A stretch of DNA of 64,000 nucleotides. It comes from Dechloromonas agitata is5. Lineage in GTDB: Bacteria > Pseudomonadota > Gammaproteobacteria > Burkholderiales > Rhodocyclaceae. The notes below the pieces were generated by a model, which saw only the letters and a list, made by a program, of their open reading frames with translations, searched no databases and had not been told where the DNA came from. Position 1 is the first letter of the stretch. Every line of letters starts with the position of its first letter. The stretch is taken from the NCBI RefSeq assembly GCF_000519045.1, contig NZ_KI912532.1, forward strand, positions 2,719,867 to 2,783,866, in the 5' to 3' direction. Below are positions 490-14,710 of this stretch, one piece after another. The translations under genes were made by a program, and so were the position numbers.

Positions 490-530
490 GCCCGGGTGAT
501 GGAATTGGTAGACATACCGGACTTAAAATC
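490..530 (+). tRNA. tRNA-Leu (UAA), 5' half, split by integration
   Basis: These 41 nt contain the acceptor GCCCGGG, the D arm and the anticodon stem and loop up to CCGGACTTAAAATC. The sequence then turns into element DNA (ACTCAGGAGTG) that cannot form the rest of the anticodon stem, variable arm or T arm. Joining it to 11034-11077 gives a perfect 85-nt tRNA-Leu(UAA), with CCGGA pairing to TCCGG. The host gene is therefore physically divided by the 10.5-kb element and should not give a working tRNA. Confidence 0.9.
520..530 (+). repeat. attL core of the integrated element
   Basis: GACTTAAAATC here and at 11023-11033 are exact direct repeats at the host/element junctions. The core is the anticodon loop with flanking stem bases of tRNA-Leu(UAA), not the tRNA 3' end that most tRNA-targeting integrases use. 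The integrase gene starts 90 bases inside. Confidence 0.88.
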
Positions 531-570
531 ACTCAGGAGTGTAGAATTATCAACAGATTAGACACGTTGG

Positions 571-588
571 TGTGTAAATGTGTGTAAT
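571..588 (+). promoter_or_regulatory. Candidate integrase arm-type sites
   Basis: TGTGTAA occurs twice with a 10-base period (571 and 581), between attL and the integrase start. The same heptamer occurs at 10902-10908 near attR. Repeats near both ends are the expected arrangement for integrase arm-binding sites. The motif is short, so chance cannot be excluded. Confidence 0.4.
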
Positions 589-620
589 CCGTTCAGTTCT
601 TACTCTTGGAGGTTGTCCGG

Positions 621-1763: not shown

Positions 1764-1843
1764 CGGACTCAGGCAAAACGGGCAAGCCAAGCGACTGCAA
1801 CGCAAGGCCAGCCCTAAACACAATCAACTGATAGGAGTTAATC

Positions 1844-2146
1844 ATGCCTAACGTCAATTTTACCGAAGAAGCATCTGCCAAGTTCGAACCGGCACTCACA
1901 GCGGAACAAGTTGAAAGCCTGGAGCAGTCAGCAAAAGACAGAGGCCAACAACGGCGCTTAGCCCTGCTCGCTTGTGCCACTTCATCCGACAAGCTCCGCG
2001 AACTGCGGGACAACGAGCCGGAAGCGTTCTTGCAAATGTTCGAAGCAGTAGAGGCATTCAAGCACCACACCCAAGGACTTGCCGAGATCGCAGAATCCGC
2101 GCTATGCCGCATGCTCCTGGCTGGCGATACCGAAGCCAAGCATTAA
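1844..2146 (+). CDS. Hypothetical element protein (100 aa)
   Basis: A small acidic, helix-rich protein (many Ala, Glu and Leu) with no family I recognise. TAGGAG lies upstream of the ATG. It is the first gene after the integrase, a position often held by small regulators, but no helix-turn-helix is evident. The same DNA can be read in other frames on both strands; this frame is preferred because it has a ribosome site and balanced codon use. Confidence 0.6.
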   Translation: MPNVNFTEEASAKFEPALTAEQVESLEQSAKDRGQQRRLALLACATSSDKLRELRDNEPEAFLQMFEAVEAFKHHTQGLAEIAESALCRMLLAGDTEAKH

Positions 2147-2156
2147 CCGGGTAAGC

Positions 2157-2212
2157 CCCCCCTAGCTCGACGGAGCGAAAAGCCGGAAACCTTCACCGGC
2201 CTGGGGGTGGCA
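2157..2212 (+). ncRNA. Possible structured RNA leader with two hairpins
   Basis: Between two genes lie the hairpins GCTC-GACG-GAGC (2165-2176) and GCCGG/CCGGC (2182-2186 with 2196-2200). They are enclosed by a C run (2156-2162) and a G run (2203-2207) that could close a junction. There is no T run, so it is not a normal terminator. It may be a small RNA or a leader for the next gene. Nothing identifies a known family. Confidence 0.3.
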
Positions 2213-2240
2213 CTTAACGAAGGAGCGAGGAAGGATCGCT

Positions 2241-3044
2241 ATGCAACCATGGGCACCAGAATATCTAGTAAGGATTTACGAAGATATCGTTTCGTTTGAA
2301 GAGGAAACAAAGAAGCGAAACCCATCTGCAATTGAAAAAAAACAACTTGCTGAATCTAAGCAGTTTTCATCATGGGATCAATATATTAGCTATATAGATC
2401 ACTACAAAAAAATCATTTATTCACTATGCAATGACGATAATGCTAGATCGGTTTGGGAGTGGATTGGAGAGATAGACATTGTTTATCCATGGAATTCTAT
2501 TAGCTTGGTGATTGAGGATTGGTATAGATCGCCGCGACAAACAAATAAAGAATTCAATGATGATCGAGACGAGATTGTTGATTTAGCCAAGAGGCTGTCT
2601 ATTAAGCTATCTAAACACTATGGAAACCCAGATATTCCAACAAACTTGTCTGCATTTATTCCTGACGAATACACAGAAAAAGCCCTAAAAACAACTCACC
2701 CTGAATTTATTAAAATAGCAGAAAAGAAAAAGCGGAACCCAAAAATGTATATTGGTCTTGGTCTCCCTCCGATTCATGTAATTCTAAATTCACTAGCGAA
2801 TCTTGTTAGCCAAGCAGAACCAAGAAAAGGACCGCGTAAGATACATAGCAAATCTGCATTAAGACAGAAATTACTTGGGCGTGTAGTTGGATCTCTATAT
2901 GGGAATGGTGCAAGACACTCCATGGAGAATCTGGTTAAATTTCTCTATCTCCTTACTGGAGATGAAACCATTACCGATGCAACAATTCGTGCTGACCTGA
3001 ATAGCTCTGACTACTGGGAATATTACCGACCGCAAGATTTCTAG
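2241..3044 (+). CDS. Hypothetical AT-rich cargo protein (267 aa)
   Basis: I do not recognise this protein. It is charged, rich in Lys, Ile and Asn, and has no signal peptide or membrane segment. A coiled-coil-like N-terminus (residues 10-60) leads to a basic region near residues 165-215 containing KKKRNPKMYIG and RKGPRKIHSKSALRQK, which could bind nucleic acid. The gene is clearly more AT-rich than its neighbours, which suggests separate, recent acquisition. In phages and satellites such lone AT-rich genes between integrase and replication modules are often accessory cargo, including anti-phage functions, but that role is only a guess here. Confidence 0.7.
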   Translation: MQPWAPEYLVRIYEDIVSFEEETKKRNPSAIEKKQLAESKQFSSWDQYISYIDHYKKIIYSLCNDDNARSVWEWIGEIDIVYPWNSISLVIEDWYRSPRQTNKEFNDDRDEIVDLAKRLSIKLSKHYGNPDIPTNLSAFIPDEYTEKALKTTHPEFIKIAEKKKRNPKMYIGLGLPPIHVILNSLANLVSQAEPRKGPRKIHSKSALRQKLLGRVVGSLYGNGARHSMENLVKFLYLLTGDETITDATIRADLNSSDYWEYYRPQDF

Positions 3045-3095
3045 CAAAAATCGTTCTTATCTTTCGGCGAACATATTTAGCGAAAAGTATCTTGA

Positions 3096-3122
3096 CTCCT
3101 ACCGCAACACACCACGTAGGAG
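3096..3122 (+). promoter_or_regulatory. Hairpin covering the ribosome site of the Xis-like gene
   Basis: CTCCTAC (3096-3102) is exactly complementary to GTAGGAG (3116-3122), with a 13-base loop. The second arm contains the GGAG Shine-Dalgarno sequence of the gene at 3129. If formed in mRNA it would hide the ribosome site and give translational control of the excisionase-like gene. Confidence 0.45.
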
Positions 3123-3128
3123 TACAAG

Positions 3129-3350
3129 ATGGAAAACAGCAACACAGAAGTAATCACCATCAACGACCTCAAAACCATTGAGGGACTTGTTGAGGTAAAT
3201 CCCCAGGTCTTAACCGTTCCGCTGTTGCGCTGGCAACTTCGCCACCGCTACGAGAACGGACTCGCTAACTGCTGCGTCAAAGCAGGGAAGCGCATCCTTA
3301 TCAGCCAGAGCCGTTACGAACAATGGCTTGCTGCTAATGCCGGTAAGTGA
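3129..3350 (+). CDS. Excisionase-like small DNA-binding protein
   Basis: At 73 residues, the protein has a C-terminal half (RWQLRHRYENGLANC then AGKRILISQSRYEQWL) that matches the layout of AlpA/Xis-type winged-helix proteins: a helix, a turn around NGL, a basic beta hairpin and a final helix. Such proteins direct integrase toward excision or activate satellite genes. A strong GTAGGAG precedes the ATG but can be sequestered in a hairpin. It begins the replication gene block. Confidence 0.6.
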   Translation: MENSNTEVITINDLKTIEGLVEVNPQVLTVPLLRWQLRHRYENGLANCCVKAGKRILISQSRYEQWLAANAGK

Positions 3351-3360
3351 GGTGGCCGCA

Positions 3361-3654
3361 ATGACCACCAAAGAAAAAGCCGCCAGCCCCTGCCAGGGCG
3401 AAGCGGCTCAACAAACATCTACCAAATCTAAGCGTACCACGAAGATTGATCGCGTAATAGCGGCGCTTCACCTACCGCACGGCTTGAACCGATTCGAGGC
3501 CGCCAGGCTTGGCGACACCTGCCTTAATAGCACCGTAGCCGTTATTCGCAGCATTTACGGCAGCAAGCTAATTAGCCAGTGGGAAACAGTACCTTGCCGC
3601 TTTACTGAGCGTGGAGTGCGTGTCCTGCGCTACTGGATCATCGAGGGCGCTTGA
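3361..3654 (+). CDS. Winged-helix (HTH) phage-type protein
   Basis: A 97-residue protein with a polar N-terminus followed by residues 38-90 resembling the helix-turn-helix family common in prophages: GLNRFEAARLGDTCLNSTVA, then a linker and a second basic strand. I chose ATG at 3361 rather than a longer upstream reading because GAGGTGG lies just before it. Its stop overlaps the next start (TGATG), so it is translationally coupled to the primase gene. It is likely a regulator or replication accessory. Confidence 0.6.
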   Translation: MTTKEKAASPCQGEAAQQTSTKSKRTTKIDRVIAALHLPHGLNRFEAARLGDTCLNSTVAVIRSIYGSKLISQWETVPCRFTERGVRVLRYWIIEGA

Positions 3655-4793
3655 TGACCCCTAATCTCAATCAAGCTCAGTCGTTCCTAACGGCACTTGA
3701 TGAAGATTCCGACGAGTTCTGTTTTCAGACCTTCGACGATGGGAAGCCGGGAAACAAGAAATTGACCCGGCGACTATTCGGTAGCCTGGAGCAGCACAAG
3801 GACACCTTGTCCAAACTGAATGAGCAAGGTGCCGGGATCTTCGTCACCGTGAATCAGACGAACGGAAAGGGGCGCACCAAGGCCGATATAACGCGCATAC
3901 GGGCGTTATTTGTCGATCTTGATGGCGCACCTCTTGAACCGCTGCAAAAAGCCGCTACGCCGCCGCATATCACCGTGGAAAGTAGTCCTGGTCGGTTTCA
4001 TGCCTATTGGCGTGTTGCCGACTGTGGCCTTGATCAATGCGAGCCTGCATTGAAGCAACTTATCACCAAGTACAAGGCCGATGCGAGTTGTTCTGATCGC
4101 TCCCGGGTTCTGCGCCTGCCTGGATTCATTCACCGCAAGTCTGAGCCGTACATGGTTCATGTAATCGACTCGACGCCGGGTGAGTATCACCTTCAGGATT
4201 TATTGCCTCCAGACCTACAGAAGAAACAGATGACACAGCAGTCATCTTCAGTCTCTTCTGTCTCTTCTGTAGGTAGTGCCTTTATCCCTGAAGCAATCGG
4301 CCAGAGAAACAAGCGGCTTTTCGAGTTGGCCCGCTATCTGAAAGGCACTCAGCCGGCCGCGACTAAGGCAGAGCTACGCGAAATCATCACCGACTGGCAT
4401 AGGCAGGCATTGCCCTACATCGGCACATCGGACTTTTCCGAATCCTGGGGTGACTTTCAAAGGGCATGGGAAAGCGTCCAATTTCCCTATGGCTCTGTGC
4501 TGAATCGAATACTTGGAGAAATCGACATGAATGACGACCTACCCGCGAGCCTTTCGCAATTGGGGTATGGAGAAAAAACAATTCTTCTCTGCCGTATCTG
4601 TCGGCAGCTTCAGAAAAACGCAGGCGACGATCCGTTCTTTATCTCAGCCAGGCAGGCCGGGGAATTGATCGGATTGCATTTCACCGACGCTAGCAAGGTG
4701 CTGTATGCCCTTTGTGCTGATGACGTATTGCAACTGGTTAAACGAGGCGCAGGCAATCAAGCCAGCCGTTACCGCTACATCTGGAAGGACTAA
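3654..4793 (+). CDS. RepB-type DNA primase / replication protein
   Basis: This 379-residue protein resembles the RepB primase family of plasmids and satellites. Key stretches are RALFVDLDGAP (acidic metal site), ITVESSPGRFHAYW, and SDRSRVLRLPGFIHRK (near residues 85-165), which together form the archaeo-eukaryotic-like primase core. The C-terminal part, after a serine-rich linker near residue 200, ends in a helical region that may be a winged helix. ATG at 3654 overlaps the upstream stop. It should prime replication of the excised element; no helicase is encoded nearby, so host factors are probably used. Confidence 0.7.
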   Translation: MTPNLNQAQSFLTALDEDSDEFCFQTFDDGKPGNKKLTRRLFGSLEQHKDTLSKLNEQGAGIFVTVNQTNGKGRTKADITRIRALFVDLDGAPLEPLQKAATPPHITVESSPGRFHAYWRVADCGLDQCEPALKQLITKYKADASCSDRSRVLRLPGFIHRKSEPYMVHVIDSTPGEYHLQDLLPPDLQKKQMTQQSSSVSSVSSVGSAFIPEAIGQRNKRLFELARYLKGTQPAATKAELREIITDWHRQALPYIGTSDFSESWGDFQRAWESVQFPYGSVLNRILGEIDMNDDLPASLSQLGYGEKTILLCRICRQLQKNAGDDPFFISARQAGELIGLHFTDASKVLYALCADDVLQLVKRGAGNQASRYRYIWKD

Positions 4794-4803
4794 GGAGACA
4801 CCA

Positions 4804-4977
4804 ATGAACGAATTCACCACCGAAAACACCCGCGAACAAATCGCCCACCTTTTGGCTGACGCACAGAAGGCCATTATTTCCCCGGCTCACTCGTTAGCTG
4901 ACGTTGAAATAAAAATTCACGCTGCGACTGCGCTGATTAATGAGGTGCTGAAGCATGAAGCCAACCACGGGGGGTAA
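4804..4977 (+). CDS. Small hypothetical protein (57 aa)
   Basis: AAGGAG lies 9 bases upstream of ATG 4804, 10 bases after the primase stop. The product is a short helical protein (QIAHLLADAQKAI, IHAATALINEVLKHE). Function is unknown. Its place in the operon suggests a replication or control accessory. The next gene starts two bases after its stop. Confidence 0.55.
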   Translation: MNEFTTENTREQIAHLLADAQKAIISPAHSLADVEIKIHAATALINEVLKHEANHGG

Positions 4978-4979
4978 TC

Positions 4980-5261
4980 ATGAAAACCACCACCCCTCGC
5001 GGCGAGCAGTTCATAGCCGAGTTAATCAAGGCAATGCCCGATGGTCGGGCCGAGTTAATGTTATTGGCCTGTCTGGACAAGTACGCTGGGACTACGATTT
5101 ATCTGCCGATGCAAAGCAGGAGCGAGAGACGGATTAAAGCCGCGTCAAACATGCTGGCGAATGGCATGGCCTACGATGAAATTACCCAGGCAATCGCTAA
5201 ACGGTTTGGCGTTTCAACTCGAACGGTAATCCCCCCGGCCAATAAAGGCGGTCAGAGGTAG
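4980..5261 (+). pseudogene. Mor-like/HTH regulator interrupted by an IS3-family insertion (5' part)
   Basis: The first 81 codons or so (4980-5224) are native and end in a helix-turn-helix-like AIAKRFGVSTRT. From 5225 the frame runs into the left IS end and adds a chance tail ([11 protein letters not shown]). Removing the IS and one copy of the 4-bp duplication GAAC restores the frame into TAQRDIEHARKMSANNGGDN and a TGA at 6477-6479, giving a 101-residue protein. Its size and HTH resemble small Mor-type activators of late phage genes, at low certainty. Loss may silence the element's late genes. Confidence 0.6.
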
Positions 5262-5288
5262 AATTTTCTCGTAAAGGGAGAGTTCTGC

Positions 5289-5552
5289 ATGAAGAAGTCG
5301 AAGTTTTCGGACAGCCAGATCATCGAGGCGTTGAAGCGGGTCGAGGGTGGGCTATCGGTGCCGGAGTTGTGCCGGGAGTTGGGAATCAGCTCGGCGACGT
5401 TCTACAAATGGCGGGCGAAATACGGCGGCCTGGACGTGTCCATGATGGCCCGGATGAAGGAGTTGGAAGCCGAGAATGCGCGGCTCAAAAAGATGTACGC
5501 CGAGGAGCGCCTGAAGGCGGATATTCTGAAGGAGTACCTGGGAAAAAAGTAG
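5289..5552 (+). CDS. IS3-family transposase OrfA
   Basis: At 87 residues it has an N-terminal helix-turn-helix ([20 protein letters not shown], then [14 protein letters not shown]) and a leucine-zipper-like C-terminus ([14 protein letters not shown]). It binds the IS ends. AAAGGGAG precedes ATG 5289. The frame ends at a TAG directly after the slippery run A-AAA-AAG (5543-5549), where a -1 shift makes the OrfAB fusion transposase. Confidence 0.9.
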
Positions 5553-5575
5553 GTCGGCCATCTCGCCGGCGTGAG

Positions 5576-6376
5576 ATGGCCAAGGAAGTGGTGGCCGGAA
5601 AGCGAATTTCGATCCGCTTGGCCTGCGACATTTTCCAGGTGAGCGAGACCTGCTATCGGTATTCGGCCAAGAAGAATGCCGAGAATGAGGAAATCGCCGA
5701 CTGGCTGATGCGGCTAACCGACAACCACCGCAACTGGGGATTTGGGCTGTGCTTCCTGTACCTGCGCAACGTGAAGGGCTTTGGTTGGAATCACAAGCGG
5801 GTGTATCGGATTTACCGGGAGTTGGAATTGAATCTGCGGATCAAGCCCAGGAAACGGCTGGTGCGGGAGAAACCGGAACCGCTGGCCGTGCCGACTGCCA
5901 TCAACCAGGTGTGGTCTATGGATTTCATGCATGACCAGCTCGAAGACGGGCGCTGTTTCCGGTTGTTCAATGTGATCGATGACTTCAACCGGGAAGCCCT
6001 GGGCATCGAGATCGATTTCTCGCTGCCGGCCGAGAGGGTGATCCGTGCCCTGGAGCAGATCATCGAATGGCGGGGGAAACCAGCCGCCATTCGATGTGAC
6101 AATGGCCCGGAGAACATCAGCGGCCTGGTGCAAAACTGGGCAGAAAAGCGGCAGATCAAGATGGATTACATCCAGCCGGGCAAGCCCCAGCAGAACGCCT
6201 ACGTCGAGCGCTTCAACCGGACAGTGCGCTACGAGTGGCTATCGCAATATTGCTGGGCAGACCTCGATGAAGTCCAGCTCTTCGCCACCCAGTGGATGTA
6301 CGACTACAATCACGACCGCCCAAACATGGCCTTGGGCGGCATCACGCCAAAACAGCGGCTGGCCATGGCCGCGTAG
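5576..6376 (+). CDS. IS3-family transposase OrfB (DDE integrase core)
   Basis: OrfB is read in the -1 frame relative to OrfA; the fusion runs on from 5543. ATG 5576 is the first internal start. The DDE catalytic residues are in [17 protein letters not shown] and [10 protein letters not shown], with the usual spacing of about 35 residues between the second Asp and the Glu. An N-terminal HTH_21-like region ([12 protein letters not shown]) is present. The reading frame is intact, so the IS may still be active. Confidence 0.9.
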
Positions 6377-6418
6377 CTCTACTTCTGATCGCCCCTAATT
6401 CTGGGGGGATTACCGAAC

Positions 6419-6479
6419 CGCACAGCGTGATATTGAACACGCTAGAAAAATGTCGGCAAATAATGGCGGTGATAACTGA
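6419..6479 (+). pseudogene. 3' remnant of the interrupted Mor-like gene
   Basis: These 61 bases continue the frame of the gene begun at 4980 once the IS and one GAAC copy are removed. They encode AQRDIEHARKMSANNGGDN and a stop at 6477-6479. As it stands the piece has no start and is silent. Confidence 0.55.
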
Positions 6480-6492
6480 TAAATTGTTGGTT

Positions 6493-6678
6493 ATGAAAAC
6501 TTTTCTATCAAACCTGATTGCCAGCAAGCAAAAATCCAAACATGAAGCGGATTATGAGCTTGTCCGTGCAAAACGCCGCTTTGAAAAACTCCTGCGCTCC
6601 GAGGGCATGAGTATTAAGGATGCCAAAAAACAGGTTGCGGAACAGTTTTCAAATAACCACACCCACGAAAGGATTTAA
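6493..6678 (+). CDS. Small hypothetical protein upstream of capsid gene (61 aa)
   Basis: A short, basic, helical protein (KHEADYELVRAKRRFEKLLR). It starts at ATG 6493, with no strong ribosome site, and ends 3 bases before the capsid gene. Its position suggests a head-gene accessory, but it lacks any recognised motif. An alternative in-frame ATG at 6463 would overlap the upstream remnant. Confidence 0.45.
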   Translation: MKTFLSNLIASKQKSKHEADYELVRAKRRFEKLLRSEGMSIKDAKKQVAEQFSNNHTHERI

Positions 6679-6681
6679 CAA

Positions 6682-7761
6682 ATGAGTACTTTAGAAACTA
6701 TCGAGCGCGCCCTTGTTCAATTTGAAAATGGTTTTGCTTCCAAGTTTGAAGAGGTTTCCACTAAAACCAAGGAACTAGCCGACGAACTTCTGCAAATCAA
6801 GCAGCGTGGCGTTATGCAACCCGACAACGATGGTCTGCAAACCAAGGGCGGTAATCTGTCTGGCCTGGTATCGAAGGCTTTCTCTGAGAATGCCGAACTG
6901 CTGGCGAAAGCCCCGAATGTTCGCCTTGAGATCAAAGCCGCTGGCGATGCGCTCACCACCTCCGATGCTCGCACCATTCAATCCGCTGGCGTCGGTATCC
7001 CGGTAGGCGCTCCGCTGGGTATCTTCAACGCTCTGCCGCGTCGTGTTATCGGCGCTACCTCTGCTGTTGAATATAGCCGCTTCCTGGCCCTTGAAGGTGC
7101 TGCTGCCAAGCAAGCATCCGAAGGCGCAGCGAAGGCCGCTGTTCGTCCTACCTTCAGCTTGATTGTTCAACCGGCGGCAACCATCGCAGGCTACAGCAAG
7201 ATTTCCAAGCAGGCGCTGACGGATAGCGCCGAACTGAAAACCGCCGTTGATTCCACTTTGGTGCGCAGTATCGGCACCGCGATGGATACCTATCTCTGCT
7301 CTGGCTCTTGGGGCGGCGCTAACGGCCTGCTGGCTCACGCTACCGCTTACACCAGCCTGGTGTACACCGCTCTGGCCGATGCCATTTCCGAAGGCGTGGC
7401 CACCATGCAACTGGCTGGCTTCAATCCGGATTCTGTTGCGCTGAACCCGGCCGATTGGCTGGCGCTGACTACCGCACGCGGTACGGCTAACGATCACTAC
7501 CTGAGCGGCAATTACCTCGGCGCTCTGCCGATGGCGCTGCGTGGCTTGAACGTGGTGCTGTCGCCGTCTGTTACCGCTGGCAAGGCTCTGCTGCTGGATA
7601 CCGCCCACATTGAACTGTTGATCGTTGATCAGATGACGATCGAGGTTGGCACCGATAGCGATGACTTCACCAAGAACATTCGCACCATCCTGGGCGAAGT
7701 GCGATTCATCCCTACGTTCCGTGCGGTGGGTGCTGCTCGCCTGATCACGCCGAAAGCCTAA
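6682..7761 (+). CDS. HK97-type major capsid protein
   Basis: This 359-residue protein has the plan of the HK97 gp5 family. Residues 1-75 form a coiled-coil, scaffold-like N-terminus (LVQFENGFASKFEEVSTKTK). A linker of about 20 residues leads to the capsid fold, with the E-loop/P-domain region (LPRRVIGATSAVEYSRF) and a late A-domain segment ending GEVRFIPTFRAVGAARLI. No separate head protease is encoded nearby, although the N-terminal delta-like domain normally needs one, so a helper phage may supply it. AAAGGA lies before ATG 6682. Confidence 0.85.
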   Translation: MSTLETIERALVQFENGFASKFEEVSTKTKELADELLQIKQRGVMQPDNDGLQTKGGNLSGLVSKAFSENAELLAKAPNVRLEIKAAGDALTTSDARTIQSAGVGIPVGAPLGIFNALPRRVIGATSAVEYSRFLALEGAAAKQASEGAAKAAVRPTFSLIVQPAATIAGYSKISKQALTDSAELKTAVDSTLVRSIGTAMDTYLCSGSWGGANGLLAHATAYTSLVYTALADAISEGVATMQLAGFNPDSVALNPADWLALTTARGTANDHYLSGNYLGALPMALRGLNVVLSPSVTAGKALLLDTAHIELLIVDQMTIEVGTDSDDFTKNIRTILGEVRFIPTFRAVGAARLITPKA

Positions 7762-7772
7762 CGACTGAGCAT

Positions 7773-7796
7773 AAGGGCTGGCTCCGGCTGGCCCTT
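7773..7796 (+). terminator. Hairpin after the capsid gene (weak terminator or attenuator)
   Basis: AAGGGC (7773-7778) pairs with GCCCTT (7791-7796) just after the capsid stop. No T run follows, so it may attenuate rather than stop transcription, which would help keep capsid expression above that of the next genes. Confidence 0.3.
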
Positions 7797-7816
7797 CAAC
7801 CTCTAGAGGACACCCC

Positions 7817-7924
7817 ATGAACCTTATCGACAAAATCGCCATTGCTCACGACTTCCAGCAACTGCGCCTGGCCCTGATTCTCAATGAAGTTCGCCAAGTA
7901 CGCCGCGCCGTCGCCGCCCTGTAA
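7817..7924 (+). CDS. Very small hypothetical protein (35 aa)
   Basis: AGAGGACACCCC precedes ATG 7817. The frame encodes a 35-residue helical, hydrophobic-faced peptide (KIAIAHDFQQLRLALILNE). It ends at TAATG, where the next gene starts by overlap. The coupling supports translation. Function is unknown. Confidence 0.45.
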   Translation: MNLIDKIAIAHDFQQLRLALILNEVRQVRRAVAAL

Positions 7925-8118
7925 TGGCTGCTCAGGACTTCATTAACGAACGACGCCGCAAGAACATCCTGCGCTACTGCCAGGACAAAGGTTTATCTGT
8001 CATGCCGTATGGCAAGAACGCATGGTGGATTACCGGGTATGGCGTCAGCGTGATTACCTGTGACCTGGCTGATGTTCATATCAAAGAGCTTGAACCAAAG
8101 CCGGTTACTGACCGATAG
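7924..8118 (+). CDS. Small hypothetical protein (64 aa)
   Basis: Starts in the TAATG overlap with the previous stop. The product, with an N-terminal basic helix (INERRRKNILRYCQDKG) and a beta-rich end (AWWITGYGVSVITCDLAD), looks like a small folded domain. I recognise no family. Its location between capsid and terminase genes is typical for small element-specific proteins. Confidence 0.5.
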   Translation: MAAQDFINERRRKNILRYCQDKGLSVMPYGKNAWWITGYGVSVITCDLADVHIKELEPKPVTDR

Positions 8119-8322
8119 CTCCTCGACCTTCCGGGAGGTTATCCCGGACGCGGATAAGCCGGTGAGTACCGCGCTCACAGCAACCCCGGCAGTGCGGCGC
8201 CATGAATGCAGAACGGTGGCCGCACACCCCCCGGAGGCCCCAGCAAAGTCAAAAAGGCTAAAAACAGGACACCGACCGGTTAATGCGCTTGTGAGTTACC
8301 CGTATTTTTCTAGGAGCACGAA
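8119..8322 (+). other. 204-bp gap before the terminase small subunit gene
   Basis: No convincing gene. A perfect hairpin TCCGGGA/TCCCGGA occupies 8130-8148, and a second (GTGAG/CTCAC) lies near 8163-8179. A weak frame from GTG 8162 runs to just past 8322 but has no ribosome site. Packaging (cos or pac) sites often lie beside terS, so this is the best place in the element for one. That is inference only. Confidence 0.3.
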
Positions 8323-8739
8323 ATGGGACTAAGAGGCCCGAAATCTACTGTAGAGCGGCTCTGTGTCGTCAATCTGGAACAACCGCGCCCCAAAGCACCG
8401 AAAGGACTGCCGAAACATGCTGTATCGCTGTGGGATGACATTGTTGGCGCATATCCAGCCGATCACTTTTCAGCCGGCGATCTGCCACTGCTTGATAACT
8501 TTGTTCGTTGCGTTCTGATTCTGGAACAAACCAACAAGGCTTTAGCCGAGGAAGGCATTTTCACTGCTGACGGCTCAAAACCGCACCCGGCGATTGCCAT
8601 TCGGGATTTGCAACTCAAGGCCATGGCGACACTGGCAACAAAGCTGCGCCTTCCCGTATCGAGCCGCATTCGTGCCGATAGTGCTGGAACCCGCCCAGGC
8701 AAGAACACGCCGAAACCGTGGGAAATGTATGCCGATTGA
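8323..8739 (+). CDS. Phage terminase small subunit, P27 family
   Basis: At 138 residues, it begins MGLRGPKST and has the family pattern PKGLPKHAVSLWDDIV, then LPLLDNFVRCVLILEQTNKALAE. The C-terminal basic tail (SSRIRADSAGTRPGKN) is typical of P27-type TerS. TerS binds the packaging site and directs the large terminase. No large subunit follows, as in satellites that redirect a helper phage's packaging motor. TAGGAG lies 7 bases before ATG. Confidence 0.8.
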   Translation: MGLRGPKSTVERLCVVNLEQPRPKAPKGLPKHAVSLWDDIVGAYPADHFSAGDLPLLDNFVRCVLILEQTNKALAEEGIFTADGSKPHPAIAIRDLQLKAMATLATKLRLPVSSRIRADSAGTRPGKNTPKPWEMYAD

Positions 8740-8741
8740 GT

Positions 8742-9065
8742 ATGAACCAGAATTCTCCGGACAAACCCCAGATGACGACGACGAAGAACTGCCCTATGTG
8801 CCGTCTGAAACTGGGCAGGCCGGACGGGATGATTGCCAACAAGGACGACGCAGGCGTGTATTTCGTCTTTGCGATTTGCACCAACTGCTCGATTAAGTAT
8901 CAACGTTGGTCGCCAGCGATCAGGAAGCAGCAGCTACGCGCCGCCATCGGCCTATTGGCCATGAATCCGAGCCGCTACAACGTCAAGACCTTCGACTCGA
9001 AAGCTGCCGCCTGGATCTACACCGAACTAGAGATTCAAGCATTAAAGGATGCCAAACATGATTAA
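8742..9065 (+). CDS. Hypothetical zinc-ribbon-like protein (107 aa)
   Basis: Two CxxC pairs (NCPMCRLKLG near residue 17 and ICTNCSIKY near residue 46) suggest a zinc ribbon. The remainder is helical and basic (AIRKQQLRAAIGLLAMNPSR). Start ATG 8742 follows the terminase stop by two bases; ATG 8775 is an alternative. Role unknown; a DNA- or RNA-binding accessory is plausible. Confidence 0.55.
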   Translation: MNQNSPDKPQMTTTKNCPMCRLKLGRPDGMIANKDDAGVYFVFAICTNCSIKYQRWSPAIRKQQLRAAIGLLAMNPSRYNVKTFDSKAAAWIYTELEIQALKDAKHD

Positions 9066-9195
9066 TCAGGAATTGCTCGCACAGGCCATTGCAGAGGCTT
9101 ATCAGCTCGCCAAGCAGGAAAGCCAAGCCCACCCATCAAACGCACAAGAAAACGCACAGGAAGGGCCGGAAATGCCCTCTGGTGACGAACAATGA
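9058..9195 (+). CDS. Very small hypothetical protein (45 aa)
   Basis: Starts 8 bases inside the previous gene and ends with ATGA overlap into the next (9192-9195). It is an Ala/Gln-rich helix (ELLAQAIAEAYQLAKQE) with a polar tail. The overlaps on both sides argue for a translated, coupled gene. No function can be assigned. Confidence 0.45.
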   Translation: MINQELLAQAIAEAYQLAKQESQAHPSNAQENAQEGPEMPSGDEQ

Positions 9196-9608
9196 GCTTT
9201 ACCGCGCATTGTCTGACCGTCCATAACCCGTTTAATCCGATGCGGGGCCGCGAGTTTCAGGTATTGGATGAGCCTGTAGCAATCCGCGCCCTGGTGCCGC
9301 AAACCAATAAGCCTGTCGTTGTCGTTCGCAATGGCGGATACGTTTTGCGCGCCAGTTGGGACGAGGAAGTTAAAGATGGCGACACGCTGGCAGTCGTGTT
9401 TCTTCCGCAGGGTGGCGGCGATGGTGGCTCAGATGTAACAAAAGTCATCATGATGATCGTCGTTGCCGTGGTTGCGTACTACACCGGCGTTTATGTCGGT
9501 GGCCAGGAAGGTCTGGCAATGGGTGCCGGATATGGCTATGCCGCCCAGGCTGCTGTCGGGATCGTTGGATCGCCTTCAATCAATATTCACTTGGAGTCTA
9601 CGCAATGA
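9192..9608 (+). CDS. Tail-tip-assembly-like protein with membrane segment
   Basis: At 138 residues, the N-terminal 75 or so end in EEVKDGDTLAVVFLPQGGGD. This resembles the DGD-V-PP-GG ending of beta-grasp domains found in lambda gpI-like tail-assembly proteins and in the N-termini of tail-tip proteins. A hydrophobic stretch follows (KVIMMIVVAVVAYYTGVYVG, residues 81-100), then a Gly/Ala-rich tail. It looks like the N-terminal piece of a tail-tip protein kept alone. It is ATGA-coupled on both sides. Confidence 0.45.
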   Translation: MSFTAHCLTVHNPFNPMRGREFQVLDEPVAIRALVPQTNKPVVVVRNGGYVLRASWDEEVKDGDTLAVVFLPQGGGDGGSDVTKVIMMIVVAVVAYYTGVYVGGQEGLAMGAGYGYAAQAAVGIVGSPSINIHLESTQ

Positions 9609-10195
9609 GCCTGATTAACGCTCTCAACATGGGCGACCACGCCTTGATTAGTGCCGACTCTGAAGCCGTGTTTCCCGATGGCTCTCGCGGCCAAGTTAGC
9701 AAGCTGCTAACCATTCCCCACCTCAATGCGGTTATCGCCTGTCGTGGCTCGCTGGCATTCCTGCAAAAGGCCCATGCCGAGTTTTGCACCATGTCGAACT
9801 TCGATCAGATGGCAGAGCGTGCCGAACTGGTTATGAGTTACGCACTGGCGCAGCAGGGAAGCACCGAGCATCTGGACAAGTACGCGCACGGGGCTGAAAT
9901 GGTGCTTGCCGGGTACTCACAGAAGGCCGGGAGAGTCGTTATTCACCTGATCCGCTGCGAGGGTATCGGCCATGACACAGAAGCGCACCTAGACATTGCA
10001 AATGCCATCCTGCCCGGTGACTTGGGGATTAGCCTGGAAGGCATTACAGCTAGCCGGGAAGGCTTGATCGAGCTAACCAGCCGCCAAGTCAAAGCCATTC
10101 GTGAGCATGCGCCAGATGCTGCTGCCGGTGGCAATCTGATCGTTGCCGAGGTTAGGCCACGAAGTATTGCAGTAGAGAGTGTTGGAGCTATCTAG
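9605..10195 (+). CDS. Hypothetical element protein (196 aa)
   Basis: The start overlaps the upstream stop (ATGA). The pattern ALISADSEAVF, then SKLLTIPHLNAVIACRGSL, resembles the first strands of Ntn-hydrolase or proteasome-like folds seen in some phage proteins, but I see no N-terminal Thr, Ser or Cys nucleophile. A functional call is not possible. It is the last gene of the plus-strand block, followed by a good terminator at 10206-10231. Confidence 0.55.
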   Translation: MSLINALNMGDHALISADSEAVFPDGSRGQVSKLLTIPHLNAVIACRGSLAFLQKAHAEFCTMSNFDQMAERAELVMSYALAQQGSTEHLDKYAHGAEMVLAGYSQKAGRVVIHLIRCEGIGHDTEAHLDIANAILPGDLGISLEGITASREGLIELTSRQVKAIREHAPDAAAGGNLIVAEVRPRSIAVESVGAI

Positions 10196-10205
10196 TAGCG
10201 AACCG

Positions 10206-10231
10206 AACCCACCAAGCAGGTGGGTTTTTAT
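10206..10231 (+). terminator. Terminator of the element's plus-strand operon
   Basis: AACCCACC pairs with GGTGGGTT around a short loop and is followed by TTTTATT. It closes the capsid/terminase transcript and faces the minus-strand genes. Confidence 0.75.
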
Positions 10232-10449
10232 TGATCCCTTGGCCTGGCTAGGCAAGCAGTAGAGGTTGCCGCTAGTGCTTCCTCCTGAGAGTCATAAACG
10301 ACCTGCTCGCGTCTGGATGACTCTACCGGCACAGCGTCGGGATGCTCAATTCTGATCTGCGATTCTGAGCAGTGGTACCGGGTAATAAATGACTTCTGCC
10401 TGATCTCGCAGAAGTAGCGCCAGCGATACCAAATCTCGACGTGTGCCAT
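10228..10449 (-). CDS. Small SOS-controlled protein of the element (73 aa)
   Basis: A polar protein with an aromatic N-terminus (MAHVEIWYRWRYFCEIRQ) and RYHCSESQIRIEHPDAVPVE. It lacks a signal or membrane segment. A textbook-form LexA site (CTGT-N8-ACAG) lies 18 bases upstream. A DNA-damage-induced gene at this place could trigger excision or counter the host, as small SOS-controlled antirepressors do in other elements; this is inference. No family is recognised. Confidence 0.55.
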   Translation of the reverse strand: MAHVEIWYRWRYFCEIRQKSFITRYHCSESQIRIEHPDAVPVESSRREQVVYDSQEEALAATSTACLARPRDQ

Positions 10450-10466
10450 ACAATAAGCCCCAAATA

Positions 10467-10482
10467 CTGTTTATGCGTACAG
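10467..10482 (-). promoter_or_regulatory. LexA (SOS) box in the element
   Basis: CTGTTTATGCGTACAG fits CTGT-N8-ACAG exactly, the same form as the box in front of lexA at 58511-58526. It lies directly upstream of the minus-strand gene that starts at 10449. Confidence 0.65.
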
Positions 10483-10530
10483 TACATGAGGCAATGATAC
10501 AAAACTACTGTATGAAGCAGAGCAGGGGAG

Positions 10531-10827
10531 TGGTGCCCGGGACGGGAATCGAACCCGTACGCCTTTCGGCGAGGGATTTTCTTCACACTACGGCTTTCGC
10601 CGCCAGCATTAGCTGTTCGTGCGCTGGACTATGCCTTCACCGTGGCGCAATGCGCTGTAGGTGCCCCCCGTCTAGTCTCTACACCTTCCTATTGCTAGGC
10701 TTGGCTCGGCGTTGCCTCGGCGATGTGCCAGGGGTTTCTCCGAATTTGAGGGGATTCACGCGGGCGCTTTCGCTTCCCGGTGCTCAATCTATAAGTCCCT
10801 TGTGTCTACCAATTTCACCACCCGGGC
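10531..10827 (-). tRNA. tRNA-Leu (UAA) carried by the element, interrupted by a group I intron
   Basis: The 5' exon is 10793-10827 (35 nt, from GCCCGGGTGG to GACTT) and the 3' exon is 10531-10580 (50 nt, from AAAATCCCTC to CCA). Spliced, they form an 85-nt cloverleaf with anticodon stem AGGGA/TCCCT, loop CTTAAAA (anticodon UAA), variable arm TCGCCGAAAGGCGT, T arm GGGTTCGATTCCC and encoded CCA. It is the same isoacceptor as the host gene that the element splits, but differs in the D arm and anticodon stem. A promoter candidate lies upstream. Confidence 0.92.
10581..10792 (-). ncRNA. Group I intron (IC3-like) in the anticodon loop of tRNA-Leu(UAA)
   Basis: This 212-nt intron follows the exon base T34 and ends in G before AAAATCC. 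The last exon bases CTT can pair with the guide sequence TTGAG at intron bases 6-10, leaving a U-G wobble at the 5' splice site, the hallmark of group I introns. Core blocks match those of the Azoarcus tRNA-Ile intron: TCAAATTCGG, GGCAACGCCGAGCCAAGC, AAGGTGTAGAGACTAGACGG and GGTGAAGGCATAGTCCA. In these, GACTA pairs with TAGTC as P7. It contains no homing endonuclease. The position between U34 and A35 is the one used by cyanobacterial and plastid tRNA-Leu(UAA) introns. Confidence 0.93.
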
Positions 10828-10852
10828 AAGGGGGGAACTCGACAAGCCGCGC

Positions 10853-10880
10853 ATTCTATCGTCTAGATGTGCGTTTGGAA
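10853..10880 (-). promoter_or_regulatory. Candidate promoter of the intron-bearing tRNA-Leu
   Basis: Reading the minus strand, TTCCAA (10880-10875) and TAGAAT (10858-10853) are 16 bases apart and lie 25 bases before the tRNA. The fit to consensus is moderate. Confidence 0.45.
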
Positions 10881-11022
10881 CATGGTTTAGTGCGTAATTC
10901 GTGTGTAACATAGCGCACTTTCCGGCGTTATTGACCACAATGCAGCACTTTTTTAGACGCAGATAATCTTATTAATCAATGTGTTATCTGGTGTCGTGTT
11001 GTGCTTGTTTGTGAATAGTGTT

Positions 11023-11033
11023 GACTTAAAATC
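11023..11033 (+). repeat. attR core of the integrated element
   Basis: GACTTAAAATC, identical to 520-530. The flanking left sequence (GAATAGTGTT) is element DNA and the right flank (CGGAGCCGAAAGG) is host tRNA. Confidence 0.88.
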
Positions 11034-11077
11034 CGGAGCCGAAAGGCGTACGGGTTCGACCCCCGTCCCGGGCACCA
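11023..11077 (+). tRNA. tRNA-Leu (UAA), 3' half, split by integration
   Basis: It contains the anticodon loop, the 3' side of the anticodon stem TCCGG, the variable arm, the T arm GGGTTCGACCCCC, acceptor CCCGGGC and encoded CCA. It lacks any D arm or 5' acceptor strand. It complements the half at 490-530. No tRNA can form from this half alone. Confidence 0.9.
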
Positions 11078-11921: not shown

Positions 11922-11988
11922 GACGTCCCCCCGGAATTGAGTAGCGGCTGACTTTAGAGTCCAATCTTTCACGATAAGGAGATTGGAC

Positions 11989-12252
11989 ATGAAGAAGCGA
12001 TTCACCGAAGAACAGATCATTGGTTTCCTGCGGGAAGCGGAGGCAGGGATGCCGGTTGCGGAACTGTGCCGCAAACACGCCTTCTCAGAAGCGAGTTACT
12101 ACCTCTGGCGCAGCAAGTTCGGCGGCATGAGTGTGTCGGACGCCAAGCGGCTCAAGGAGCTCGAAACGGAAAACACGCGCTTGAAGAAGCTGCTGGCCGA
12201 AACGATGCTGGAAAATGAGATCGCCAAGGAAGCCCTGAGAAAAAAGTGGTGA
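11989..12252 (+). CDS. IS3-family transposase OrfA (copy B)
   Basis: At 87 residues, it has a helix-turn-helix (MPVAELCRKHAFSEASYYLW) and a zipper-like end (LKELETENTRLKKLLAE). I chose ATG 11989, preceded by AAGGAG; a TTG two codons earlier is an alternative. It ends with AGAAAAAAGTGGTGA, an A-AAA-AAG slippery run for the -1 shift into OrfB. Confidence 0.88.
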   Translation: MKKRFTEEQIIGFLREAEAGMPVAELCRKHAFSEASYYLWRSKFGGMSVSDAKRLKELETENTRLKKLLAETMLENEIAKEALRKKW

Positions 12253-13109
12253 GCGCACCATCACGGCGTGATCTGGTGCGCTATCTGATCGACAAGGGGC
12301 TCAGCGAGCGAAGGTCATTGCGGTTTATCGGGATGAGTCCGAGCTCATTCCGTTACCGGCCGGTGACGGATCGCAATGCGGCTTTGAAGGAGCGGATCGT
12401 CACACTCGCCCAACGCCATCGGCGCTACGGAGCCGGGATGATCTATTTGAAACTGCGGCAGGCCGGCATGGTGGTGAATCACAAGCGGGTGGATCGGCTC
12501 TACGCCGAGGCCGGTCTGCAAGTGAGAAGGCGAAAGCGTAAGAAGATCCCTGTATCGGATCGCCACCCGCTAGAGCGTCCTTCTGCAGCCAATCAGGTCT
12601 GGTCAATGGATTTCGTGTTTGACCGGACGGCGGAAGGACGAGTCATCAAAAGCCTGACCGTTGTAGATGATGCAACGCACGAGGCGGTTGCGATTGTCCC
12701 GGAGCGTGCGATCGGTGGCATGCAACTCACCAGAGTGCTCGATCAGTTAGCCAAAACACGGGGATTGCCCAAGGCGATCCGGACGGACAACGGCAAGGAG
12801 TTCTGTAGTCGTGCCATGCTGACCTGGGCGCATGCCCGTAGCGTTCAACTCTTCCTCATTGAACCCGGCAAGCCCAATCAGAACGCCTATATCGAATCGT
12901 TCAATGGGCGTTTCCGGGATGAATGCCTGAACGAACACTGGTTCACCAGCCTACGCCATGCTCAGATTGTTATTGAAGGCTGGCGCCGTGAATACAACGA
13001 GGAGCGACCGAAAAAATCCCTGGGCGGTTTGACGCCTGCGGCTTATGCCAAATCACTCACCCAAAAATCGGGTAAATTACCCACGGACTCTAAAGCACTC
13101 TGCTACTGA
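12246..13109 (+). CDS. IS3-family transposase OrfB (copy B)
   Basis: At 287 residues with a GTG start overlapping the OrfA end, in the -1 frame. The DDE residues lie in VWSMDFVFD, IRTDNGKEF and [17 protein letters not shown]. Frame intact. The sequence differs clearly from copies A and C, so the three ISs are distinct types that arrived separately. Confidence 0.9.
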   Translation: MVSAPSRRDLVRYLIDKGLSERRSLRFIGMSPSSFRYRPVTDRNAALKERIVTLAQRHRRYGAGMIYLKLRQAGMVVNHKRVDRLYAEAGLQVRRRKRKKIPVSDRHPLERPSAANQVWSMDFVFDRTAEGRVIKSLTVVDDATHEAVAIVPERAIGGMQLTRVLDQLAKTRGLPKAIRTDNGKEFCSRAMLTWAHARSVQLFLIEPGKPNQNAYIESFNGRFRDECLNEHWFTSLRHAQIVIEGWRREYNEERPKKSLGGLTPAAYAKSLTQKSGKLPTDSKALCY

Positions 13110-13124
13110 AAACGGGGGGACGTC

Positions 13125-13215
13125 GGCCAAAGCAGAGATTGGTGAGTTCCAGAAGATAGTCAAGCAAATGGAAGCCGCTATTGAACTGAATTGCAGATAC
13201 AAGGGACAGAATTGA
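13125..13215 (+). pseudogene. 3' fragment of the IS-interrupted small gene
   Basis: An open frame without a start reads AKAEIGEFQKIVKQMEAA onward and ends IELNCRYKGQN with TGA at 13213-13215. It continues the frame of 11809-11921 if the IS boundaries are set two bases inside the repeats. No family recognised. Confidence 0.4.
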
Positions 13216-13521
13216 CCGTGATCGTGCTCGCTAAGTGAACGGGGTATGTTTGTCGCCAACTGTTTTTTGAAGGTGTTAGAAAATCAGTATGCTGGGTTAG
13301 TTTGTAGTCACAGGGGGCTAAATTGTGACCATGAATCTTCGAATCTGAGGGACAGAATTGTGTCACCCGAGTCAGCTACCATTTGTTGCAACAAATGGTA
13401 ATGGTTTTCTGAAAATGGACGATTTCAGGCTTCGCGCTGCCGAGGTTGTATAATAATTTTACATAATACAAATTATGCGCCTTCCAGATAACTAAAACTT
13501 TCCAAAAACTTGCGTTTTTTC
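13216..13521 (+). other. 306-bp stretch without a gene
   Basis: No supported gene. It holds the 12-base string GGGACAGAATTG (13350 region), also present at 13203 just before this stretch, and a perfect 24-bp palindrome at 13377-13400. The rest is AT-rich and ends at the left end of the next IS. Confidence 0.5.
13377..13400. repeat. Perfect 24-bp palindrome
   Basis: The 12-base arm TACCATTTGTTG is followed at once by its exact reverse complement. It has no loop and no T run, so it is more like an operator or recombination site than a terminator. It lies between two ISs. Confidence 0.6.
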
Positions 13522-13583
13522 TGAGGTGCCCCCCGTAATCAGTGCCACCGGCAATTTAGTAAAGTCCGTTTTCGAGAAGGAGA

Positions 13584-13853
13584 ATGGACTTGAAGAAGCG
13601 GTTTTCAGAAGAGCAGATCATCGGTTTTTTGCAGCAGGCGGAAGCCGGCGTGGCGATCAAGGAACTGTGCCGGCAACACGGCTTCAGTGACGCCTCGTTC
13701 TACAACTGGCGGGCGAAATTCGGCGGCATGTCAGTTCCGGATGCGAAGCGCCTGAAGGAACTGGAAGCCGAGAACGCCAAGCTCAAACGCCTACTGGCCG
13801 AATCGATCCTTGATGCCGAAGCTCTCAAAGCGGCCTTGGGCCGAAAGCGCTGA
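13584..13853 (+). CDS. IS3-family transposase OrfA (copy C)
   Basis: At 89 residues, with a helix-turn-helix ([20 protein letters not shown]) and a C-terminal zipper ([17 protein letters not shown]). GAGAAGGAG precedes ATG 13584. It is related to, but clearly different from, the OrfA of copy B. Confidence 0.88.
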
Positions 13854-13879
13854 GCCCCCAGCAAAAGCGTGAGTCAGTC

Positions 13880-14710
13880 ATGGTGATGCGGAAAGCGACA
13901 GCAATTTCCCAACGCCGTGCCTGCCAGCTGGTGGGTTTGTCACGCACGGTCCTGCATTACGTATCGAAGGCGCAGCCGGAGAACGAGCAGTTGCAAGCCA
14001 GGCTGGTCGAACTGGCCGGCGAGCGCCGCCGGCTCGGCTATCGCCGCTTGCATGCGCTGGTTCGGCGAGAGGGCGTTCGAGCCAATCACAAACGGATTTA
14101 TCGGCTCTACAGTGATGCCGGTCTGTCAGTTCGGCGCCGCAAAAAGCGACATGGTGTGGCTGTTGAGCGGCAGGCACTGGAACGCCCTACCGAGCCCAAC
14201 CAAGTTTGGTCGATGGATTTTGTCAGTGACGCGCTGGCCAATGGCCGCCGGATCAAGGTGCTGACCATCGTCGATGATTTCAGCAAGGAGGCCATCGATC
14301 TCGCGGTCGACTTCGGCATTTCAGGCCATTACGTTACGCGTGTTCTTGATCAGGCGGCTCGCTTCCGGGGCTACCCCAAGGCCATTCGAACTGACCAGGG
14401 ACCAGAATTTACCGGCAAAGCGCTCGACCAGTGGGCCTGCCAGCATGGCGTTCAGCTCAAACTGATCCAGGCCGGGAAACCCACGCAGAACGCGTTCATC
14501 GAGAGCTTCAACGGACGCTTCCGAGATGAGTGCCTGAATGACTATTGGTTTACGAGCTTGCCACAGGCTCGTATCCTGATCGCCGCCTGGCGCCGGGACT
14601 ACAACCAGCATCGGCCGCACAGCGCATTGAATTATCAAACCCCGGCAGAGTTCGCGGCCGAGCATCGGGCAACCACCTCTGCCCAGCCAGCCGCCGAAGA
14701 ATGTCTTTAA
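13880..14710 (+). CDS. IS3-family transposase OrfB (copy C)
   Basis: At 276 residues, the DDE residues are in [18 protein letters not shown] and [17 protein letters not shown]. The frame is -1 relative to OrfA and stays open back into the OrfA end, so a frameshift fusion is possible, though no A-run slippery site is evident. ATG 13880 is the first internal start. Confidence 0.88.

Follow-up and report, generated by a model that had tools for sequence, protein, structure and literature searches.

How can a mobile element break the only tRNA-Leu(UAA) gene found in its host, supply another from its own DNA, and keep that second copy from serving as an integration site? The question is raised by a 10.5-kb element at positions 520–11033 of the window, by which we mean the whole 64,000-nucleotide stretch of Dechloromonas agitata is5 DNA that was analysed. 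The genome is a single contig of 3,627,226 bases (3.63 Mb) with an estimated completeness of 100%. We propose, with a probability of about two in three, that the locus represents tRNA-dependent integration in which the replacement gene carried by the element is disguised in the DNA, here by a group I intron. The element splits a host tRNA-Leu(UAA) gene that starts at 490, is preceded by genes for tRNA-Gly, tRNA-Cys and tRNA-Gly, and is broken at 530. The features of the locus, in window coordinates, are the following.

490–530, plus strand: 5′ half of the host tRNA-Leu(UAA), ending in the attL core (sequence; a full tRNA when joined to the 3′ half)
520–530, plus strand: attL core GACTTAAAATC, the anticodon loop CTTAAAA plus two stem pairs (sequence)
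570–586, plus strand: putative arm-type site pair, GTGTGTA at 570–576 and 580–586 (pattern; presumed binding)
621–1763, plus strand: tyrosine integrase (Pfam PF00589, E = 2.3e-27; PHROG 1, E = 1.2e-54)
2155–2223, plus strand: int-alpA RNA (RF02996, 63.2 bits)
3129–3350, plus strand: small ORF at the alpA position (tblastn matches in 13 of 28 stretches searched)
3651–4793, plus strand: RepB-type primase (PF16793, E = 3.3e-16)
5289–6376, plus strand: insertion in the element with two overlapping ORFs (ORF list), presumably IS3-like
6682–7761, plus strand: phage major capsid protein (PF05065, E = 5.2e-18; PHROG 10), which we take to be HK97-type
8125–8194: Proteo-phage-1 RNA (RF03044, 45.5 bits), between the capsid and small terminase genes
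8323–8739, plus strand: terminase small subunit (PHROG 83, E = 4.6e-12; Pfam PF05119 under the cut-off)
9192–9608, plus strand: short ORF resembling part of tail fibre J (PHROG 31, E = 2.3e-8)
10531–10580, minus strand: 3′ exon of the replacement tRNA-Leu(UAA), beginning AAAATCCC, with CCA (ARAGORN)
10581–10792, minus strand: group I intron, 212 nt (Rfam, ARAGORN, alignment)
10793–10827, minus strand: 5′ exon of the replacement tRNA-Leu(UAA), ending GGGACTT (ARAGORN)
10890–10907, plus strand: putative arm-type site pair, GTGCGTA at 10890–10896 and GTGTGTA at 10901–10907 (pattern; presumed binding)
11023–11033, plus strand: attR core GACTTAAAATC (sequence)
11034–11077, plus strand: remainder of the host tRNA-Leu(UAA) 3′ half, to CCA (sequence; whole half 11023–11077)

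As the initial annotation had stated, the host gene is cut at the anticodon loop between two copies of an 11-bp repeat; these two are the only exact copies of GACTTAAAATC in the whole genome, where a reversed control pattern has none. Its further observation that element DNA completes neither half was borne out by the sequence: the host tRNA is destroyed because element and target share only these 11 bp. The integrase, int-alpA RNA, primase, capsid and small terminase suggest a phage satellite or remnant. The small ORF at 3129–3350, for which Pfam and PHROG searches gave no match, is probably to be named AlpA. PADLOC, run on 10 proteins in all, matched two cargo proteins of relatives and none of the three window proteins scanned. 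Two more transposase ORF pairs, presumably IS3-like as well, lie outside the element, past the host DUF1178 gene (window 11983–14710).

With introns allowed, ARAGORN places a tRNA-Leu(taa) at c[10531,10827] and gives its intron, 212 nt long, as ‘gactt-Intron-aaaat’. This agrees with the earlier description of a complete, opposite-strand tRNA-Leu(UAA) whose only interruption falls between GACTT and AAAATC; without the intron option the program misses the gene. The intron sits between U34 and A35, within the 11-bp attachment core. The Rfam model Intron_gpI (RF00028) scored 36.1 bits (E = 1.5e-7) for positions 10613–10803 of the minus strand, short of the curated threshold of 50 bits, and this was its only match in the genome at E ≤ 1. 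A single-sequence fold of the intron-bearing gene gave a non-significant z of −1.49. We aligned 16 intron-bearing tRNA-Leu(UAA) genes; in 41 of the 76 predicted pairs, both bases are changed in one sequence or more. All 16 genes have a U.G pair at the 5′ splice site, and in all of them GAAAATCC spans the 3′ splice junction and provides the terminal G. The proposed group I assignment thus holds: the core helices covary, and both splice-site features are present.

The genome has 57 tRNA matches; the ten that reach at least 81 bases were read individually and comprise tRNA-Leu with anticodons CAA, UAG, CAG (twice) and GAG, four tRNA-Ser and one tRNA-Tyr. Neither this reading nor the core pattern search found a second tRNA-Leu(UAA) in the single-contig genome, a copy that would have argued against replacement. 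Outside the element, the window contains 31 ORFs of at least 200 aa; UUA makes up 25 of their 13,345 codons and is present in 14 of them. Since UUA codons are rare but present and the other leucine tRNAs have the anticodons CAA, UAG, CAG and GAG, the element gene is probably needed, and it is probably transcribed and spliced.

To place the locus among related elements, DNA searches covered 199 genomes, and integrase searches covered 395 family genomes, 399 order genomes, genome contigs and viral contigs. A scan of genome contigs with a single integrase sequence yielded no confirmed relative; an integrase alignment search of genome contigs returned 40 loci, of which 14 at 49–59% identity were used (L112–L125; three repeat G163, G056 and G024, and 11 are new), two distant ones (L126, L136) served as outgroups and the other 24 were set aside. 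The tRNA scan also covered the set-aside loci L131, L133, L134 and L138. The 22 resulting candidates comprise 21 integrases, namely that of the window and 20 relatives (46–65% identical where identity is given), plus G074, represented by its tRNA end only. We counted 17 elements. Left out were L120, L121 and L122 (contig ends), L152 from IMG/VR (no core found) and G601, in which no tRNA half was found upstream of the integrase and an uninterrupted tRNA-Leu(UAA) lies on another contig. Both ends were read for 15 of the 17; attL is missing for G074 and C. basilensis. The intron-bearing tRNA-Leu loci of G081, G004, G097, G140, G011, G103, G128, G147, G175 and G127 were not counted as elements, as they lack a paired attachment site or related integrase.

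Each of the 17 elements carries a complete replacement tRNA-Leu(UAA) on the opposite strand, 155–275 bp inside attR, so the claim that the element replaces the tRNA it destroys extends to the whole set; as a reading of these sequences, replacement is strongly supported. The empty site, an intact tRNA-Leu(UAA) beside tRNA-Gly, tRNA-Cys and tRNA-Gly, was seen in L107, L110 and L111. Cargo varies among members: a search of 28 stretches at E ≤ 1e-5 gave no match to the window primase, capsid or terminase. Two loci have unusual arrangements. Magnetospirillum has two host tRNA-Leu 5′ halves and two 3′ halves (L192:640–690 and 2045–2095; G838:C45:133106 and 135789), perhaps because a second element is inserted within or next to the first at one site. 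In G097, an intron-bearing tRNA-Leu is preceded on its own strand, at a distance of about 160 bp, by a 5′ half ending in GACTTAAAATC (L082:4048–4567); no related integrase was found in this stretch, which is perhaps a decayed element.

The attachment sites themselves indicate where recombination would occur. In five elements (G056, G163, G291, G295 and L123) attL reads GACTTAAAAAC but attR reads GACTTAAAATC, which places strand exchange within GACTTAAAA; the 7-bp anticodon loop CTTAAAA would be a natural overlap segment. Of the 17 elements, 14 were examined for GTGCGTA-like sites, and 12 of these have a pair, spaced by about 10 bp, on each side of the core, at +47 to +60 and 122–145 bp before the attR core; the exceptions are L198, with one integrase-side site, and L118, with none of that pattern. 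In sequence, the arrangement looks like a lambda-type attP. We therefore envisage, on sequence grounds, that the tyrosine integrase would recombine attP and the anticodon arm of the one tRNA-Leu(UAA) gene of the host, with the loop probably acting as the strand-exchange segment and the stem arms as core-type binding sites, while the element would supply its own tRNA-Leu(UAA), presumably expressed from just inside attR. Left unmasked, the replacement would offer an additional attB, inverted and about 200 bp from the element's own core. Since the replacement gene would itself be an attachment site, it would have to be disguised in the DNA and correct in the RNA. The intron would put 212 bp between the half-sites, and predicted splicing should remove it. 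Such a mask should protect the last tRNA-Leu(UAA) of the lysogen against being inverted or split by the integrase, and should stop later elements with the same target from killing the replacement gene.

If disguise matters, it should be visible in relatives with and without the intron. The core is indeed broken in 14 of the 17 replacement genes. Five carry the intron and otherwise keep the core (the window, G056, G163, G074 and a Rhodoferax MAG). Nine are intronless: three have the swapped pair C30:G40 (G101, Pseudorhodoferax and Bradyrhizobium), five have G30.U40 (Ralstonia pickettii, Dechloromonas, two Cupriavidus and Magnetospirillum) and one, viral contig L198, has G31:C39. The Dechloromonas copy, in which the D loop is also shortened, may be decayed. 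The remaining three, G291, G295 and L123, belong to one integrase clade and keep an intact, uninterrupted 11-bp core; their replacements differ from the host at stem pair 28:42, which is variable among family hosts. The expectation that each related element would have an intron at U34/A35 was thus not borne out.

For comparison, we examined uninterrupted 3′ halves among the order matches listed (200 genomes), where 150 rows were reduced to 139 by a script filter (10) and by eye (1). TC is present at 39/40 in 135 of these 139, and four are changed (5 of 140 without the removal by eye, in a sample that includes attR halves of element hosts). Changed cores are found in 9 of 12 intronless replacements versus 4 of 139 listed genes (Fisher P = 1.7e-9, with kinship ignored). 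The initial annotation had viewed the intron as the mask; the frequency of altered cores in intronless relatives supports a more general disguise of the replacement core, while the intron as a requirement is wrong, 12 of the 17 elements being without it. In the 16 aligned intron-bearing genes, GACTT/AAAATC is always kept in the exons, so the intron stands in for a stem change. Compensated or wobble changes in the relatives would likewise hide the core while leaving the tRNA paired. Judged from these comparisons, masking of the replacement's core appears well supported.

The stem changes could also be read in other ways. If the replacement differed so that a tRNA-cutting host defence would miss it, altered stems would be expected, and phage tRNAs have been reported to escape anticodon nucleases through anticodon-loop mutations (a title cited in PMC11476347). 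Here, all 17 replacement genes retain the anticodon loop CTTAAAA, the altered place coincides with the attachment core, and an intron that is spliced out is absent from the mature RNA and cannot hide it; we regard nuclease evasion as highly improbable. Scarcely more probable is that the replacement diverged to avoid homologous recombination or gene conversion with the host halves, with core changes as a by-product. Most replacement tRNAs do differ from the host tRNA at many positions, but the 5′ half of the G295 replacement equals that of its host save position 28, and uninterrupted genes, though highly variable at other positions, seldom change at 39/40, a comparison uncorrected for overall divergence. 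Even less credible is a role for splicing as a switch, in which the ribozyme would delay or condition tRNA supply and restrict lysogeny to suitable cells, because most elements of this integrase family manage without an intron.

Against the disguise reading, altered or intron-bearing tRNA-Leu(UAA) genes also exist where no element was seen. G601, with its uninterrupted tRNA-Leu(UAA) and no tRNA half found before the integrase, counts against it too. Altered cores of this kind were seen in G582, G170, G187 and G625 (L218, L219, L220 and L221), where they read CACTTAAAATG, GACTTAAAATT (twice) and GGCTTAAAACC. Two of these genes directly precede a DUF1178 gene, as does the host gene of the window, so that some hosts may be immune or may retain a gene left by an element.

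On the integrase tree, in which several deeper forks lack resolution, the five mask states require at least eight changes and the intron state at least three. Sister branches pair the window intron with the G101 swap (support 89/90), the G056/G163 intron with the Magnetospirillum wobble (100/100), and the Bradyrhizobium swap with the Ralstonia wobble (100/99). The replacement gene has therefore been swapped often, and outside one clade the replacement gene now present has a broken core. Between the window and G056, the integrases are 53% identical and the tRNA genes with their introns 89%. Identity to the window intron is 84–95% in the other four elements and in G081, and 76% or less in the remaining tRNA-Leu introns; the intron tree has little resolution. 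Because the exons of the Rhodoferax element differ, the intron has probably moved between tRNA genes.

Alternatively, the intron might be a passenger, captured by the element as part of an intron-bearing gene and without a role in integration. U34/A35 of tRNA-Leu(UAA) is a well-known group I intron site in cyanobacteria and plastids. Intron-bearing tRNA-Leu(UAA) occurs in 14 of the 199 genomes searched, that of the window included, and introns at the same position were seen in genes without an element; in G011, for example, such a gene neighbours tRNA-Gly-Cys-Gly in a stretch that lacks a related integrase. Introns of similar size (207–232 nt) were also called in tRNA-Thr(UGU), tRNA-Arg(CCU), tRNA-Ser(UGA) and tRNA-Met/Ile(CAU) of relatives (L090, L091, L092, L094, L095 and L096). 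Capture of this kind leaves unexplained why most intronless replacements have a changed core, and why the element introns resemble one another and stand apart from the others although the integrases have diverged; we consider it possible but unlikely. Intron-bearing genes appear to work in cells, as suggested by a search of 26 genomes in which no uninterrupted 3′ half was found in eight (G011, G081, G097, G103, G147, G140, G128 and G127), each of which has an intron-bearing gene; the set includes incomplete genomes, and the search pattern was non-exhaustive.

Replacement genes with core changes of more than one kind are also seen in actinobacteriophages. Blastn aligned the window gene to Gordonia phage Daredevil over 158 bases (75%, E = 1e-13), and ARAGORN predicts there an unannotated tRNA-Lys(ttt) beside the integrase, with a 238-nt intron between GACTT and TTAAT (L204:5880–6191, NC_048021.1). 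An uninterrupted GGACTTTTAATCC lies 168 bp from this gene on the integrase side. Rfam alone gives the intron 15.4 bits (E = 0.43), so its group I-like assignment depends on the blast match. The accessible text of Guerrero-Bustamante and Hatfull (mBio 2024, PMC10865867) states that Daredevil integrates at tRNA-Lys-TTT, that its plaques are clear and that, of the pair Mollymur and Daredevil, only Mollymur encodes its own tRNA. Clear plaques do not fit a working intron-bearing tRNA; either the host gets no functional tRNA from the intron-bearing gene, or the plaques are clear for another reason.

Ten actinophages were fetched, and six have a readable replacement. Only Mollymur and Daredevil are named in the accessible text of PMC10865867; the others were included on the basis of integrase and tRNA. 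Four of the six are changed, Cheetobro at 31:39 (G:C), CicholasNage at 31:39 (C:G), Mollymur at 30:40 (C:G) and Daredevil by its intron, and two, Faith1 and Nicholas, keep GACTTTTAATC. SirPhilip and Amgine have a host-like 3′ half at attP, from which the Mycobacterium host core was deduced; that of Gordonia Ile2 was deduced from the Mollymur attP. In the stretches fetched, tRNA-Lys(UUU) was not found for Bromden, and neither a tRNA nor a CTTTTAA core for Smoothie. With their intact cores, Faith1 and Nicholas, like G291, G295 and L123, speak against a strict masking rule.

Separate matches were found in plasmids and other phages. In PLSDB, 1247 of 72,556 plasmids match the window gene over at least 80% of the query. 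Resistance plasmids L001 and L002 carry a tRNA-Leu-like gene between IS26 transposase and AAA-ATPase genes, followed by aac(3)-II; the L001 copy (L001:9995–10292) is unannotated, intron-bearing and about 68% like that of the window. In marine phages L205 (4960–5180, MH598807.1) and L206 (near 5001, KT997847.1), a group I intron-like stretch between two capsid-annotated ORFs suggests, from the sequence, an intron-interrupted capsid gene. In a 595-kb phage (L208:4700–5300, LR756511.1), a group I intron-like end lies directly 5′ of what appears by eye to be the 3′ part of a tRNA, with a possible endonuclease ORF upstream.

Taken more broadly, we lean towards the view that elements destroying an essential tRNA must carry a replacement unreadable to their own integrase, and that masking evolved repeatedly, in Proteobacteria satellites and Actinobacteria phages, by anticodon-stem changes or by a self-splicing ribozyme that conceals the site in the DNA and disappears from the RNA. 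If true, the bacterial group I tRNA intron would gain a selectable use, and the long-standing archaeal suggestion of tRNA introns as guards against integration would become testable with one integrase and natural substrates. A rule, that the replacement should be disguised, would be added to tRNA-dependent lysogeny and would bear on the reported Daredevil exception. A caution would also follow, that replacement tRNAs of mobile elements escape intron-blind tRNA finders.

By gene content alone, the present elements resemble phage-inducible chromosomal islands and P4-like satellites, with sizes of 9–18 kb, an int and alpA-like module, a primase and, in some, capsid or terminase genes. Group I introns are likewise known in tRNA-Leu(UAA) of cyanobacteria and plastids and in other bacterial tRNAs. 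The introns described here share with those of cyanobacteria and plastids the tRNA-Leu(UAA) gene, the U34/A35 position and the U.G at the 5′ splice site; unlike them, they are borne by an integrating element whose target site the intron interrupts.

That archaeal tRNA introns protect against integration was, as the initial annotation noted, proposed earlier (Randau and Soll 2008, as cited in the accessible parts of PMC3293823 and PMC4090602). The accessible part of PMC3293823 adds that an intron borne by an element could shield that element from further invasion, and that direct evidence for intron protection was absent before that paper. As in the archaeal proposal, an intron in a tRNA attachment site would hide it from integrases while splicing restores the RNA; archaeal introns, as presented in these sources, are mainly in host genes, whereas here a group I intron lies in the replacement gene of the element and intronless relatives are changed otherwise.

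The logic of replacement is already known from the tRNA-dependent lysogeny of actinobacteriophages, as set out in the accessible text of PMC10865867. The window element shares its hallmarks: a short core in a tRNA gene that is not rebuilt, a carried tRNA-Leu(taa) and no other host copy found. It differs in that Proteobacteria satellite-like elements and tRNA-Leu(UAA) are involved, the replacement lies beside attR and the core is masked. Masking is not discussed in the accessible text of PMC10865867, where ‘intron’ appears once, in a reference title. In Sinorhizobium meliloti, too, prophage tRNAs replace inactivated tRNA genes (PMC11476347; mentioned in PMC12429752, both as far as their accessible parts go). 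Like the window element, that alphaproteobacterial prophage supplies a tRNA of the same isoacceptor, one closer to those of other bacteria; the accessible part of PMC11476347 mentions neither intron nor masking. In the open-licence PMC literature searched, including the accessible parts of PMC11915505, PMC12429752, PMC3984707 and PMC11476347, we found no report of a replacement tRNA being masked, whether by an intron or by a stem change. Relative to the literature searched, replacement itself and archaeal intron protection are known, and what appears new is the combination of a replacement tRNA with several parallel masks.
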